This document shows positions 1,381 through 18,015 of a stretch of DNA of 64,000 bases, piece by piece; the first letter of the stretch is position 1, and each line of letters starts with the position of its first letter. The stretch is from NCBI RefSeq assembly GCF_000504285.1, contig NZ_KI632511.1, positions 5,748,154 to 5,812,153 on the forward strand, given 5' to 3'. Position numbers and translations under genes: made by a program. Below the pieces are notes generated by a model. That model was not told the origin of the DNA. It searched no databases and saw only the letters and a program-made list of their open reading frames with translations. Source of the DNA: Actinospica robiniae DSM 44927. Lineage in GTDB: Bacteria; Actinomycetota; Actinomycetes; Streptomycetales; Catenulisporaceae.

Positions 1381-4300
1381 GTGCGGGTGAGTGGATCGCA
1401 GTGGGTCGCCGAGCGATTCATCGTGGCCGGGCCGATCGCACGGGGGAATATGGGCGAGGTCTATCGCGCCCATGACGAGCTGACCGGCGAGGAGGTGGCC
1501 GTCAAGCTCATCCGCCGTACCCGGGCCGGGGATCAGGTCGGAGTGCGCGCAGGAGCGGCGTCGGAGGCCGGGCGGCTGCTGGCCCGCTTCGAGCGGGAGA
1601 TCCGCATCATGGAGAGGCTGCACCACCCCAATCTTCCGCGAACGGTCGACGGCGGCTTCTACGGCGATGTCCCGTATCTGGCCATGGAGCTGATCGACGG
1701 GGCCACGCTGCGGCACGAACTCGACGAGCGTCATCGGTTGCCGGTGCGCTGGGCGGCCGCGCTTGGCGTGCAGATCGCTGACGCTCTGGCCGCGGTGCAC
1801 CAGGCGGGGATCGTGCATCGCGATCTGAAGCCCTCGAATGTGATGCTCACGCCCGGCGGGGTGGTCAAGGTGCTGGACTTCGGTATCGGCCTGATCGTCG
1901 ACGATCCCGATGCGACCCGGCTCACCTGCACCGACGCGACTGTGGGCACGGTGCAGTACATGGCGCCGGAGCAGGCGTCGGGGCGGGCCGTGGGCGCGGC
2001 CGCGGACATGTACGCGCTCGGCTGTGTGTTGTACGAGGCCCTTGTAGGTGCGGCACCGTTCGACGGTGAGAGCGCGTTCGCAGTCATGCGCAAGCACGCT
2101 GAACAGGAGCCGACCGCAGTGCGGTCGCTTCGCAGCGCCGTTCCGGCGGAGTTCGACGGACTGGTCGCGCGCCTGCTGGCCAAGTCGCCGACTGAGCGCC
2201 CGAGCCCCGAAGAGGTTCGGGAGGTGCTGCTGCCGTTTGCCCTCGACGACGCGGAAGCAGGCGAGTCGGCAACTGCGGACCCGCAGCGGCACGACCCGAC
2301 GGCCCCGCTGCGCGCCTCGGCCCAGTCGGCCACTCACGGCGCTGCCACAGATGCGGCGCGCATCGTCAACCCCGGCATCGATTCCGGTACAGCGGCTACC
2401 TCCGGCATGGACGTCTTTGCGATCCATCGCCGACTGATCTCCGACTACCGTGCCTTCACCGAGGGCGCGGCCGTGATTCGCGACGACCGCATCGCGCAGT
2501 TCGTGCAGGATGATCTCGATGCGAAGTCGCAGTGGCCTGATCCGTGGCTCTCGCTCAACCCGTTCTTCGCCTCCGGGGGAAGCGTCACCGATCTGGTTGC
2601 CGAGGGCGTTCTGCACGAGGAGTGCGGCCGGATCTTCCAGGCGGGCAAGCGCGACGATGCGACGAGCTGCAACGGGCGCCCGCTGACGCTTCACTGCCAC
2701 CAGCGTGAGGCGATCGACGCCGCGCGTTCAGGTGCCTCGTACGTGCTGACCACGGGCACGGGCTCGGGCAAGTCGCTCTCATATATCGTCCCGATCGTCG
2801 ATCGGGTCGTGCGCCGCCGTGCCGCGGACGCCGGAAACGGCACACCGTCGGCCAGACGGGTGAGCGCGATCATCGTCTACCCGATGAACGCCCTGGTGAA
2901 CAGTCAGCAGCAGGAGCTGGGCAAGTTCCTGCGCGCCGGATACGGCGAGGGCCGGGAGCCGGTGACGTTCGAGCGGTACACCGGTCAGGAATCGCGGGCG
3001 GATCGCGATCGGATCCGGGAGAACCCGCCGGACATCCTGCTGACGAACTACGTGATGCTCGAGTTGATGCTCACCCGGCCGGATGACCGCAGGTCCTTGA
3101 TCCGGATGGCGAAGGGCCTGGAGTTCCTGGTCCTGGACGAGTTGCACACCTACCGCGGCCGACAGGGCGCGGACGTGGCGATGCTGGTGCGCCGGATCCG
3201 AGACGCGTGCGACGCGCCGTCGCTTCAGTGCGTGGGCACCTCAGCGACCATGTCGAGCGAGGGCAGCGAGCAGGATCAGCGTGAGACGGTCGCCGCCGTG
3301 GCCTCCACGCTGTTCGGCACCACGGTGGTGCCTGAGCACGTCATCGGCGAGACGCTGGTACGCGCCACCCGGTCGGATGCAGGCGCGGTCCCGGCGGCCC
3401 GGATCAACGCCCCGGCCGCGCCGCGCGATTACGCGGACCTGGTGATGGACCCGCTCGCGTCCTGGGTCGAGTCGGCGTTCGGGCTGGGCACGGACCCTTC
3501 GGGGCGGCTGGTGCGGCGTGCGCCGTCGAGCGTGGAGATGGCGGCCGAAGAGCTCGGCGGGCAAAGTGGTGTACCGGTTGCCGAGTGCGCCGCTGCGATT
3601 CGGCGCACGCTTGAGGCTGGGGCTCAGGCGCGCGAGCCGCATACCGGGCGCCCCTTGTTCGCGTTCCGCCTGCACCAGTTCCTCTCGAAGGGTGACACGG
3701 TCTACGTCACCTTGGAGGACGAGCTGACGCGCCATCGGACCCGTGACTACCAGATCGAGCAGCCCGGATCGGGTGGCAAGGTCCTGCTTCCGCTGGCGTT
3801 CTGCCGGGAGTGCGGGCAGGAGTATCTGACTGTGTGGCGCACGGAACGCGGCGGCAAAATCATCTACCGCTCCCGGCGCGACGCGGTGGCTACAGGAGGC
3901 GATGAGACCGACGGATACCTGTATGTCAGTTCCGATCATCCATGGCCTCGCGACCTCGAGCAGGTGCTCGCGCAGCGCCGTCTGCCGGACAACTGGCTCG
4001 AGACCGACGAGCGCAAGGACCGTGACACGATCCGCTCGAGCTATCGCAAGTACGTGCCGCGGCCTGTCGCCGTCGACGTGTACGGGCATGAGGGCTCGGG
4101 TATCGAGGCGGCGTACATTCCCGCGCCGTTCCGGTTCTGCCTGCGCTGCGGCGTGTCGTATGAGCAGGCGCGTGGGCGGGACTTCGCGAAGCTGGCCACC
4201 CTCGATCAGGAGGGGCGCTCGTCGGCGACCTCGCTGATCTCCGCTTCGATCGTCAGTTCGCTGCGGGCGCTGCCGGCTTCCGCTCTCGGCGACGAGGCGC

Positions 4301-16750: not shown

Positions 16751-18015
16751 CGGTCATCGAACTGCGCGAGCACGCCCAGCCGGTCGAGCTGCGCCTCGAC
16801 GACGCGACTGGGCGTGCTCTCGCCGCGTCGGGGATCGTCAAGGCGTCCCCCGATCCATTTCTCCCAGGGATCTGGCGGCTGTCCGCGGACCGGTTCGTCG
16901 GTTCGGCCACCGTGGTGGCGACCGCCGCCACACCAGGCGCCACTGAACACACGGCGCACGCGGTGACGGTACGGATCGTCCCGAAGGTCTCGATCAGCCG
17001 CCTGTTCTTCCTCCTCGGGTACGCATTGAACCCGAGAGGCTGGCGCGAGGACCAGATCGAACTGGCAGAGCACCCCGATCTGCTGCCCGCGCTCGCGCAC
17101 GCGTTCGAACGGCAGGCCGACCGCGCCCTGCGACAGGGGCTGCTCCAGGGGTATCGACGCACCGAGGAGAGCGCGTGGGTCGTGCGCGGCCGGCTGCGCG
17201 AGACCGAGCAGCTACGCCGACGCTTCGGGGCCGCACTGCCCGTGGAGATCGAGTACGACGAATTCACCACCGACATCCCCGAGAACCGGATCCTGCGCGC
17301 CGCCGCCAACCGGCTGCTGCGCCTGCCCGGTGTCCCGGCCCCGGTCCGACGCCGGCTGCTTCACCAGCGCGCCCGCCTCCTGGACACCTCGCCGCTGGTG
17401 CGCGGCACGCAACCGCCCTCGTGGTCCCCGAACAGGCTCAACGCCCGATACGTTCCGGCGCTGCGTCTCGCCGAGATCATCCTGCGCGGCGGATCGGTCG
17501 AGCACGATCTCGGCGCGGTGCGCGTGAACGGCTTCCTGTTCGACATGGCCAAGATCTTCGAGGACTTCGTCACCGTCGCGATCCGGGAACAGCTCACCGT
17601 CGACGCGGCCGGTTCCGCGGGCGCGGTGAAGCTCCAGGCCCGCCACCACCTCGACGAGGCCGACACCGTGCTGCTGAAACCGGACCTGGTCTGGTACGAC
17701 GCGGCACACCGTCCCCTCGCGGTCATCGACGCGAAGTACAAGGCGGAAAAGCCCGAGGGGTTCCCCGGCGCGGACCTCTACCAGCTGCTCGCCTACTGCA
17801 CCGTCCTCGGTCTGCCCGAAGGCCACCTCGTCTACGCGAAGGGCAACGCCGCGCACGCCGACCACGTGGTGCGCCGCGCCGGCATCCGCATCCACCAACA
17901 CGCTCTCGACCTGCAACAGCCCCCCGACGCCATCCTCGCCCAACTCGCCTCAATCGCCCGCCACTGCGAAGGATCAGCCGGTCGGCTGTCGGAGAAAAGC
18001 CTCGTCACCAGTTGA
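16747..18015 (+). CDS. mcrC: McrC-like nuclease subunit
   Basis: This 422-aa protein starts with TTG, which overlaps the mcrB stop (TTGA); no better start is nearby, so translation is probably coupled to McrB. An N-terminal beta-rich McrB-binding region is followed by DEFTTDIPENRILRAA, typical of McrC. A PD-(D/E)xK nuclease core comes next (LLKPDLVWY ... VIDAKYKAEK near residue 325, then DLYQLLAYC). McrC is the cleaving subunit of McrBC and acts on DNA gripped by the McrB ring. The catalytic D...DxK residues are all present, so an active enzyme is expected. This is the last gene of the contiguous operon; the next starts 67 bases downstream. Confidence 0.85.
   Translation: MTVIELREHAQPVELRLDDATGRALAASGIVKASPDPFLPGIWRLSADRFVGSATVVATAATPGATEHTAHAVTVRIVPKVSISRLFFLLGYALNPRGWREDQIELAEHPDLLPALAHAFERQADRALRQGLLQGYRRTEESAWVVRGRLRETEQLRRRFGAALPVEIEYDEFTTDIPENRILRAAANRLLRLPGVPAPVRRRLLHQRARLLDTSPLVRGTQPPSWSPNRLNARYVPALRLAEIILRGGSVEHDLGAVRVNGFLFDMAKIFEDFVTVAIREQLTVDAAGSAGAVKLQARHHLDEADTVLLKPDLVWYDAAHRPLAVIDAKYKAEKPEGFPGADLYQLLAYCTVLGLPEGHLVYAKGNAAHADHVVRRAGIRIHQHALDLQQPPDAILAQLASIARHCEGSAGRLSEKSLVTS

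Follow-up and report, generated by a model that had tools for sequence, protein, structure and literature searches.

We propose that a five-gene operon of Actinospica robiniae DSM 44927, at positions 1381-18015 of a 64,000-nucleotide stretch of contig NZ_KI632511.1 (the window), is probably an ARMADA Type I antiphage system of an actinomycete kind, in which an active-looking Ser/Thr kinase is fused to the YprA helicase as a putative phosphorylation switch and McrBC acts as an accessory. The ARMADA genes and their partnership with McrBC are already known, and the kinase is the element that still looks new.

Operon architecture

The five open reading frames (ORFs) all lie on the plus strand, and their coordinates reproduce the packing described in an earlier reading made from the letters alone (the sequence-only reading), with junctions of 70, 1, -4 and -4 bases. 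Codon-position GC is consistent with coding in all five (GC at third positions, GC3, 0.86-0.89). Pfam lists agree with the domain content given in that reading: Ser/Thr kinase (residues 18-280), DEAD (440-626), Helicase_C (1299-1372) and MZB/DUF1998 (1855-1948) in ORF1, SNF2 and Helicase_C in ORF2, Eco57I/N6-methylase in ORF3, AAA_5 and DUF4357 in ORF4, and McrBC PF10117 in ORF5. The parts are as follows.

1381..7698, plus strand: ORF1, ArmC-type protein with Ser/Thr kinase, YprA-type helicase and predicted C-terminal Vsr-like nuclease in one chain (2105 aa, GTG start)
1381..2280, plus strand: Ser/Thr (Hanks-type) kinase domain, residues ~1-300 (Pfam Pkinase 154.1 bits; K42 of VAVK, HRDLKPSN and DFG intact)
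2407..7335, plus strand: YprA-type SF2 helicase with RecA1, RecA2, DUF1998/MZB and four CxxC pairs, from the relic start Met343 (MDVF)
7363..7674, plus strand: predicted Vsr-like PD-(D/E)xK nuclease domain, C-terminal (protein residues ~1995-2098; AlphaFold2 model)
7769..10726, plus strand: ORF2, ArmA-type SNF2/RapA/BrxHII-like helicase (985 aa; PADLOC label DpdE; Walker A and DEAH conserved)
10728..14795, plus strand: ORF3, ArmB-type PglX/Eco57I-like N6-adenine methylase (1355 aa; DPACGSGHF and NPPW motifs)
14792..16750, plus strand: ORF4, McrB-like GTPase (652 aa; AAA_5, DUF4357, GTMNTADRS motif)
McrB subdomains, plus strand: DUF4357 at 15011-15181, predicted EVE/YTH-like reader at 15206-15712, AAA_5 at 15875-16336
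16747..18015, plus strand: ORF5, McrC nuclease subunit (422 aa, TTG start; PF10117 184.7 bits; PD..DAK motif)

The recurrence that the sequence-only reading had suggested looking for was found: other actinomycete loci show all five genes in this order, with the mcrB start 0-13 bases beyond the final methylase codon, among them those of Amycolatopsis (L080), Thermocrispum (L093), Herbidospora (L098), Sphaerimonospora (L104), Actinokineospora (L113), Streptosporangium (L127) and Saccharopolyspora (L138). Because the order recurs across genera, the arrangement is not due to chance. A scan of 900-1450 for promoters and terminators, with a model ill suited to actinomycetes, found none.

Genes 1-3 and ARMADA Type I

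In ARMADA Type I, a YprA-like helicase that ends in a Vsr-type nuclease generally comes first, followed by a BrxHII-like helicase and then a PglX-like methylase; BrxA-like and MarR-like inserted domains are also among the features of the type (2025 preprint, Bell et al., PMC12458937). The order of YprA, SNF2 and PglX-like genes found here is the published Type I order. In a helicase tree, 22 Type I rows, including that of the window, fall on one side of a branch with a support of 100 in the Shimodaira-Hasegawa-like approximate likelihood-ratio test (SH-aLRT); nine Type II rows separate from them (100), and a Druantia protein also stands apart. The name Type I rests on gene order and on this separation from Type II, in a tree that does not hold the preprint's reference protein WP_108720193.1. 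Cysteines C808/811, 920/923, 1664/1667, 1680/1683 and 1940/1944/1947 are kept in 99 of 100 rows of the set with a kinase-helicase fusion (the fused rows) and in 30 of 30 unfused rows, and the methylase motifs DPACGSGHF and NPPW are each present in 97 of 99 fused rows, the remaining two being gapped.

The 120-aa tail of the helicase was modelled with AlphaFold2 at a predicted local distance difference test score (pLDDT) of 83.6. VIA relates the model to 3r3p (I-Bth0305I domain, Z 8.9) and to Vsr 1cw0 (Z 8.2; 22% identity over 92 residues), and tail residues D47, D62, R74 and D75 are kept in 99-100 of 100 fused rows. The model thus argues, with moderate strength, for a C-terminal Vsr-type nuclease. 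A search of solved structures placed the helicase nearest to 9tu7, a 2108-aa DEAD/DEAH helicase (168 bits), and the kinase domain with StkP/PknB; it returned no match for the methylase and no near-identical entry for two Type II helicases from Escherichia coli plasmids.

On all Type I features examined (order, clade, CxxC modules and tail), genes 1-3 are, as judged from sequence, ARMADA Type I, so that the earlier statement that no named system was known with this set is right only in part (PMC12458937). The partnership with McrBC had been noted as well, in passages of a 2024 paper that report a DISARM-like system associated with McrBC (PMC11090510).

The second gene had been called DrmD. That it is an SNF2 helicase stands; the DrmD label does not, since the best PADLOC name is DpdE (model PDLC02853, 1462.8 bits) against 271.2 bits for DrmD. 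The full-length match to PDLC02853 would invite the reading of a partial Dpd (7-deazaguanine) system, to which we give almost no credence: the NCBIfam DpdE model scores 158.7 bits against a cut-off of 500, and the whole genome holds no match to PF01702, the family of tRNA-guanine transglycosylase and DpdA-like proteins, in a search that found the family in 14 of 14 control genomes. We read ORF2, from these profile scores, as an ArmA-type ARMADA helicase, neither DpdE nor DrmD, and PDLC02853 looks like a mislabelled ArmA model, a label that will mislead automatic annotation of actinomycete ArmA helicases.

A rearranged class 1 DISARM, in which DrmD and DrmMI would stand beside a fused DrmA-DrmB, was also weighed. 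DrmD-like and DrmMI-like matches (271 and 225 bits in PADLOC, the latter the best name for ORF3; 304 bits for NCBIfam DrmD) speak for it. The helicase, however, is nearest to DruE models (best PADLOC name for the helicase part, 332.5 bits; best DrmA 48.1 bits), the NCBIfam DrmD score misses its equivalog cut-off of 610, and the helicase tree and the missing drmC contradict the idea, which we regard as very improbable. No drmC phospholipase D (PLD) domain appears in the Pfam lists of seven proteins, and the helicase and DUF1998 form one chain, so that the earlier remark on the absence of drmC and of separate drmA and drmB genes was right.

A kinase apparently fused once to the Type I helicase

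An ORF2 search of named genomes gave 137 relatives, of which the best 80 were used, a choice that favours close relatives (63-71% identity). Kinase and helicase share one open frame in 78 of these 80 loci; the other two (L133, L141) are cut by contig ends. The genera include Streptomyces, Kitasatospora, Streptacidiphilus, Micromonospora, Amycolatopsis, Prauserella, Saccharomonospora, Actinokineospora, Nonomuraea, Herbidospora, Actinomadura, Kineosporia and Thermocrispum, and a locus of Actinospica acidithermotolerans (L130) is among the helicase relatives. The fusion is conserved in many soil actinomycetes. The helicase of one locus (L147) and the methylase of another (L083) are each split over two frames.

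The glycine loop, VAVK lysine, alpha-C glutamate, HRD and DFG are kept in 97 aligned fused rows, except for one N-to-K change. The kinase alignment covers 97 of 98 fused rows (frames above 1900 aa only) and holds 91 distinct sequences; the 98 rows hold 92, the set of 19 fused Streptomycetales loci described below and the 80 named loci sharing six identical sequences.

Kinase trees were computed on subsets of 21, 14 and 11 fused rows, two of them with six long-branched genome kinases left out. The fused kinases form one clade, with support of 100/99 on 21 rows and of 97 on 14 rows that include the outlier L146. The helicase tree likewise has a single fused clade, inside which the contig-cut rows L133 and L141 fall, labelled as lacking a kinase; its sister is a group of four loci in which a kinase gene of its own adjoins the helicase and is transcribed divergently, and the outer branches carry no fused kinase. 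In 96 of 98 fused rows the old helicase start can still be recognized as an 'MD' motif with an ATG codon; the other two read LDMF (L115) and LNVF (L146). From these sequences, the kinase was apparently joined to the helicase in a single event, in front of the former start codon. We considered a kinase-free product made from the relic methionine and found no support for it: Shine-Dalgarno motifs precede 4 of 96 relic sites and 218 of 2712 other internal methionines, that is, without excess.

Among 33 Streptomycetales Type I loci, a selection of hits comprising 19 of the closest and 14 more distant ones, 19 are fused and four have the divergent kinase. Many Type I loci and the E. coli ARMADA II system lack one, so ARMADA itself can do without the kinase. 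Nor was a kinase matched in L048-L053, six loci that have a distant SNF2 but no match to YprA.

The main text of PMC12458937 does not contain the word 'kinase' (0 occurrences, supplements being outside that count), and the literature searched, with supplements and most subscription papers outside its scope, linked no kinase to ARMADA or to such YprA helicases. A Ser/Thr kinase (STK) is listed with YprA and SWI2/SNF2 in one figure legend of PMC11090510 on Type II CoCoNuTs and ancillary genes, which, as far as the passages of that paper show, is a different context from that of the ARMADA kinase.

A second kinase lineage in Type II loci

On an S. cellulosae plasmid, a Type II operon is immediately preceded by a gene for a Ser/Thr kinase. 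Searching the SNF2 protein of this operon in 245 Streptomycetales genomes gave matches at E <= 1e-120 in 40, and in 39 of them (one locus each) a kinase lies 5' of the SNF2 gene on the same strand, with 112-673 bases between the aligned ends; the 40th is cut by a contig end. These 39 loci are related by descent and are not 39 independent events. As compared by eye, 36 of the 40 genomes have a Type II YprA helicase within ~30 kb on the same strand of the same contig; in three it lies on another contig, and in G145 it was not found. The methylase and ArmD of Type II-like loci were checked in L179-L181 and L158 only. Catalytic residues are kept in all 39 kinases and in the reference.

A single clade of fused and Type II kinases is rejected by the approximately unbiased test (p-AU 0.0004), in which 14 of the 39 kinases stood for Type II, the doubtful L276 among them; this locus, from G145, has SNF2 and a kinase but gave no match for Type II YprA, and in the tree its kinase does not group with the other 13. 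The kinase was therefore recruited at least twice. A clade of fused and divergent kinases is not rejected (p-AU 0.104), and the idea that all three arrangements are independent was dropped on that result. In two earlier kinase trees one row given as a Type II kinase (L179x) comes from the far end of its operon; the true 5' kinase of that SNF2 gene is L261.

McrBC as a probable accessory

AAA_5 and PF10117 match over their cut-offs and the GTMNTADRS and KPD..DAK motifs are present, which identifies McrBC (Type IV restriction). The survey took in the 68 named loci whose sequence had been read for 5.5 kb or more past the methylase; as McrBC can lie further away, the counts are lower bounds. Relatives in which the five genes stand apart, which the sequence-only reading had said would refute it, make up part of the family, so that this refutation holds by half: McrB lies within ~6 kb behind the methylase in 19 of the 68, and within 100 bases in nine, from eight genera. 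When nine fused loci were read 13-15 kb further (L190-L198), McrB and McrC were clear in three and weak in one.

ArmA and McrB distances correlate (r 0.70 on 20 fused rows, r 0.96 on 26 rows; 0 of 2000 permutations each), from which we take it that McrBC travels with the system; McrB and McrC distances in fused rows correlate less (r 0.51). An alternative is that ARMADA and McrBC are two independent systems sharing an island, their close junctions being a local accident. The counts of 19 in 68 and of three clear and one weak in nine lean that way, as does the presence behind the methylase elsewhere of EcsC, unassigned ORFs, an ArmD-like helicase or a helix-turn-helix protein. Against it stand the nine loci of eight genera with McrB starting within 100 bases, the correlated distances and the DISARM-like cassette with McrBC noted independently in passages of PMC11090510, and we hold independence to be a possible but less favoured explanation. 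From gene distances, McrBC would be an optional accessory that tends to travel with the system.

Structure prediction suggests that McrB carries an EVE/YTH-like modified-base reader. An AlphaFold2 model of its N-terminus (pLDDT 80.5) gave, in VIA, Z 10.7 to VcaM4I (6yex), Z 9.5 to YTHDC2 with m6A DNA and Z 6.3 to T. gammatolerans McrB, so that the best EVE structures, for 5-methylcytosine and 5-hydroxymethylcytosine (5mC/5hmC), and the best YTH structures, for N6-methyladenine (m6A), lie within ~1 Z of each other. VcaM4I reads 5mC/5hmC according to PMC7897488, and a YTH-McrB fusion is described as binding m6A DNA in passages of PMC12707154. ArmB should place m6A on host DNA, where recognition of plain m6A by McrB would harm the cell itself, and we would therefore expect the mark read here to be 5mC/5hmC or another mark rather than plain m6A. 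Complementary methylation-based and Type IV action has been described for BREX with BrxU (PMC8565348).

Proposed mechanism

Starting from the gene content and order, clade membership, intact active-site motifs, single fused clade and wide conservation described above, we propose that ArmB would mark host DNA by N6-adenine methylation, ArmA would translocate on DNA, and the ArmC helicase would load on foreign or unmarked DNA, which its Vsr-like tail could cut. When phage is sensed, the kinase may phosphorylate itself or its partners and so release the complex from restraint into activity, a switch modelled on the role that PglW is thought to have in Streptomyces Pgl/BREX-2. Passages of PMC4365076 report that PglW K677A loses both autophosphorylation and phage (Pgl) resistance in S. 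coelicolor, and kinase fusions to PglW and DndF are known, which passages of PMC12839542 and PMC10853773 read as sensory hubs or back-up effectors. McrBC would cut phage DNA bearing other base modifications through its predicted EVE/YTH-like reader, and would have to ignore the ArmB mark.

The kinase might instead be a fail-safe effector that shuts the infected cell down by phosphorylating host proteins once the attack on DNA has failed (abortive infection). PglW-fused kinases have been proposed as backup suicidal effectors in passages of PMC12839542, and the domain reaches up to 284.6 bits with the PD-T4-6 defence kinases of PADLOC, though as generic-looking STK matches. We consider this role unlikely: the kinase-free E. 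coli ARMADA II protects without cell shutdown (PMC12458937), and fusion to a DNA-contacting helicase would fit a local switch or sensor better.

Extending the proposed switch, we lean, by a little, towards phosphorylation being an integral control layer of actinomycete ARMADA, with active kinases recruited at least twice and gating methylation versus destruction. If this is true, kinase-gated ARMADA would be a distinct, widespread sub-class in which McrBC and ArmD are optional back-up arms. This bears on how methylase-plus-helicase defences (DISARM, BREX, ARMADA) hold fire in the uninfected cell: a conserved, intact-looking kinase on the helicase, found again in the sister type from another lineage, suggests phosphorylation as the switch.

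Several observations weigh against the main reading or against a kinase always being needed. No kinase match lies in the ~20 kb read in 10 of the 33 Streptomycetales Type I loci, and a fused kinase is absent from the 14 Type I loci of the wider phylum that were read (L164-L177, some of them short) and from Type I relatives in Deinococcus and Roseomonas. E. coli ARMADA II protects against phage with four genes, all of them required and none a kinase (PMC12458937), and no kinase match was found in the Type II locus L154. Four Type II loci of other actinomycete groups (L182-L185) show no kinase in the 1.8-3.2 kb read upstream. McrB was not seen near 49 of the 68 relatives and may be a separate system. 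Finally, for the Vsr-like tail and the McrB reader domain alike, Foldseek by itself had no hit below E 0.001.

Accessory genes and neighbourhood

Other genes accompany the system in relatives. An ArmD-like UvrD helicase, recognized by 34% identity to the E. coli plasmid protein, stands behind the methylase in 15 of the 68 named loci. Such helicases (GajB-like UvrD with ~250 extra N-terminal residues), described for Type II, are also found in kinase-fused Type I loci, for example L079:20646-22796, L190, L193 and L195, the last three in the order McrB-McrC-ArmD. In the genome of the window, a search for ArmD gave weak UvrD-type matches only (best 42.6 bits). In 16 named loci (for instance L111:710-3454) a gene for a large protein lies immediately upstream of the kinase-helicase gene and points away from it; the representative of the protein's family has sigma-70 regions 2-4. 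In three Streptomyces loci (L074, L076, L119) the methylase is followed, in place of McrBC, by a fusion of Hsp70 with an NYN RNase and by a protein that weakly matches a GTPase, one representative of each having been profiled.

The gene that follows mcrC was considered as a sixth member of the operon. It has no match above 60 bits in the 80 named loci and is probably outside the system.

18083..19357, plus strand: ORF directly after mcrC (424 aa; no family over cut-off)

About 7.3-9.8 kb upstream of the window (L054:10183-12705), a SMODS/OAS1_C nucleotidyltransferase, a small ORF and an AAA ATPase stand in a row. The trio looks like a CBASS operon, perhaps with HORMA/TRIP13-type helpers, and the ARMADA operon therefore lies near another defence system. 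A two-ORF transposase pair, which we take to be of the IS3 kind, runs from ~0.94 kb upstream of the window to ~267 and ends ~1.1 kb before the operon. To the right, a replication-relaxation protein, a type IV coupling protein (TraG/TrwB-like), a TraG P-loop ATPase and a weakly TrbL-like protein (53709-61913) form a conjugative element, adjoined by a transposase at 51889-53619. A tRNA-bounded island was sought, and no tRNA was found in the window or in the 20 kb upstream. Between operon and element, a protein at 31318-33372 fuses lantibiotic-dehydratase C-terminal and protein-isoaspartate methyltransferase domains; together with a small possible precursor ORF at 36607-36828, it suggests a peptide natural product cluster.

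Comparison with known systems

Profile matches agree with the earlier view of a composite of DISARM-like, Druantia-like and McrBC parts. The profile check proposed with it found no membership in DISARM, Druantia, BREX or MADS, and genes 1-3 nonetheless fit a named system. With class 1 DISARM the operon shares a related SNF2 helicase and methylase and a YprA-type helicase; it differs in having helicase and DUF1998 in one chain, no DrmC and scores below the cut-offs. Druantia is represented by the DruE-like helicase only, which lies on a separate tree branch although DruE is its best PADLOC match, and neither DruH nor DruA-D is among the matches listed (the best 25 per protein for ORF1-3, complete for ORF4-5). 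MADS falls far short (MAD2 30 bits against a cut-off of 720, MAD6 140.3 against 460).

In BREX type 2/Pgl, too, a PglX-like methylase is found together with a Ser/Thr kinase that is joined to DNA-acting domains. There the kinase is carried by a NERD protein (PglW), here by the YprA helicase, and no PglZ or PglY/BrxC is seen among the operon genes. Neither PglZ nor BrxC is among the matches listed for the operon proteins (best 25 in PADLOC), the complete Pfam lists of the five proteins bear out the earlier remark that PglZ is absent, and the best PglX score is 49.2 bits against a cut-off of 400.

The cassette in PMC11090510 resembles the operon in placing YprA/DUF1998, SWI2/SNF2 and PglX beside McrBC in a figure legend, and differs in that the passages concerned mention no kinase in that context. 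ARMADA Type II (E. coli NCTC 12900 and ATCC 8739 in print; L154; S. cellulosae L158/L163) has the same three kinds of protein, but its own order of SNF2, methylase, YprA and ArmD and its own clade; in Streptomycetales it has a kinase too, but as a separate first gene and of a different lineage. The operon shares with ARMADA Type I its gene order, predicted C-terminal Vsr-type nuclease, CxxC modules and Actinomycetota host, and is set apart by the N-terminal Ser/Thr kinase on the helicase and by McrBC directly behind.

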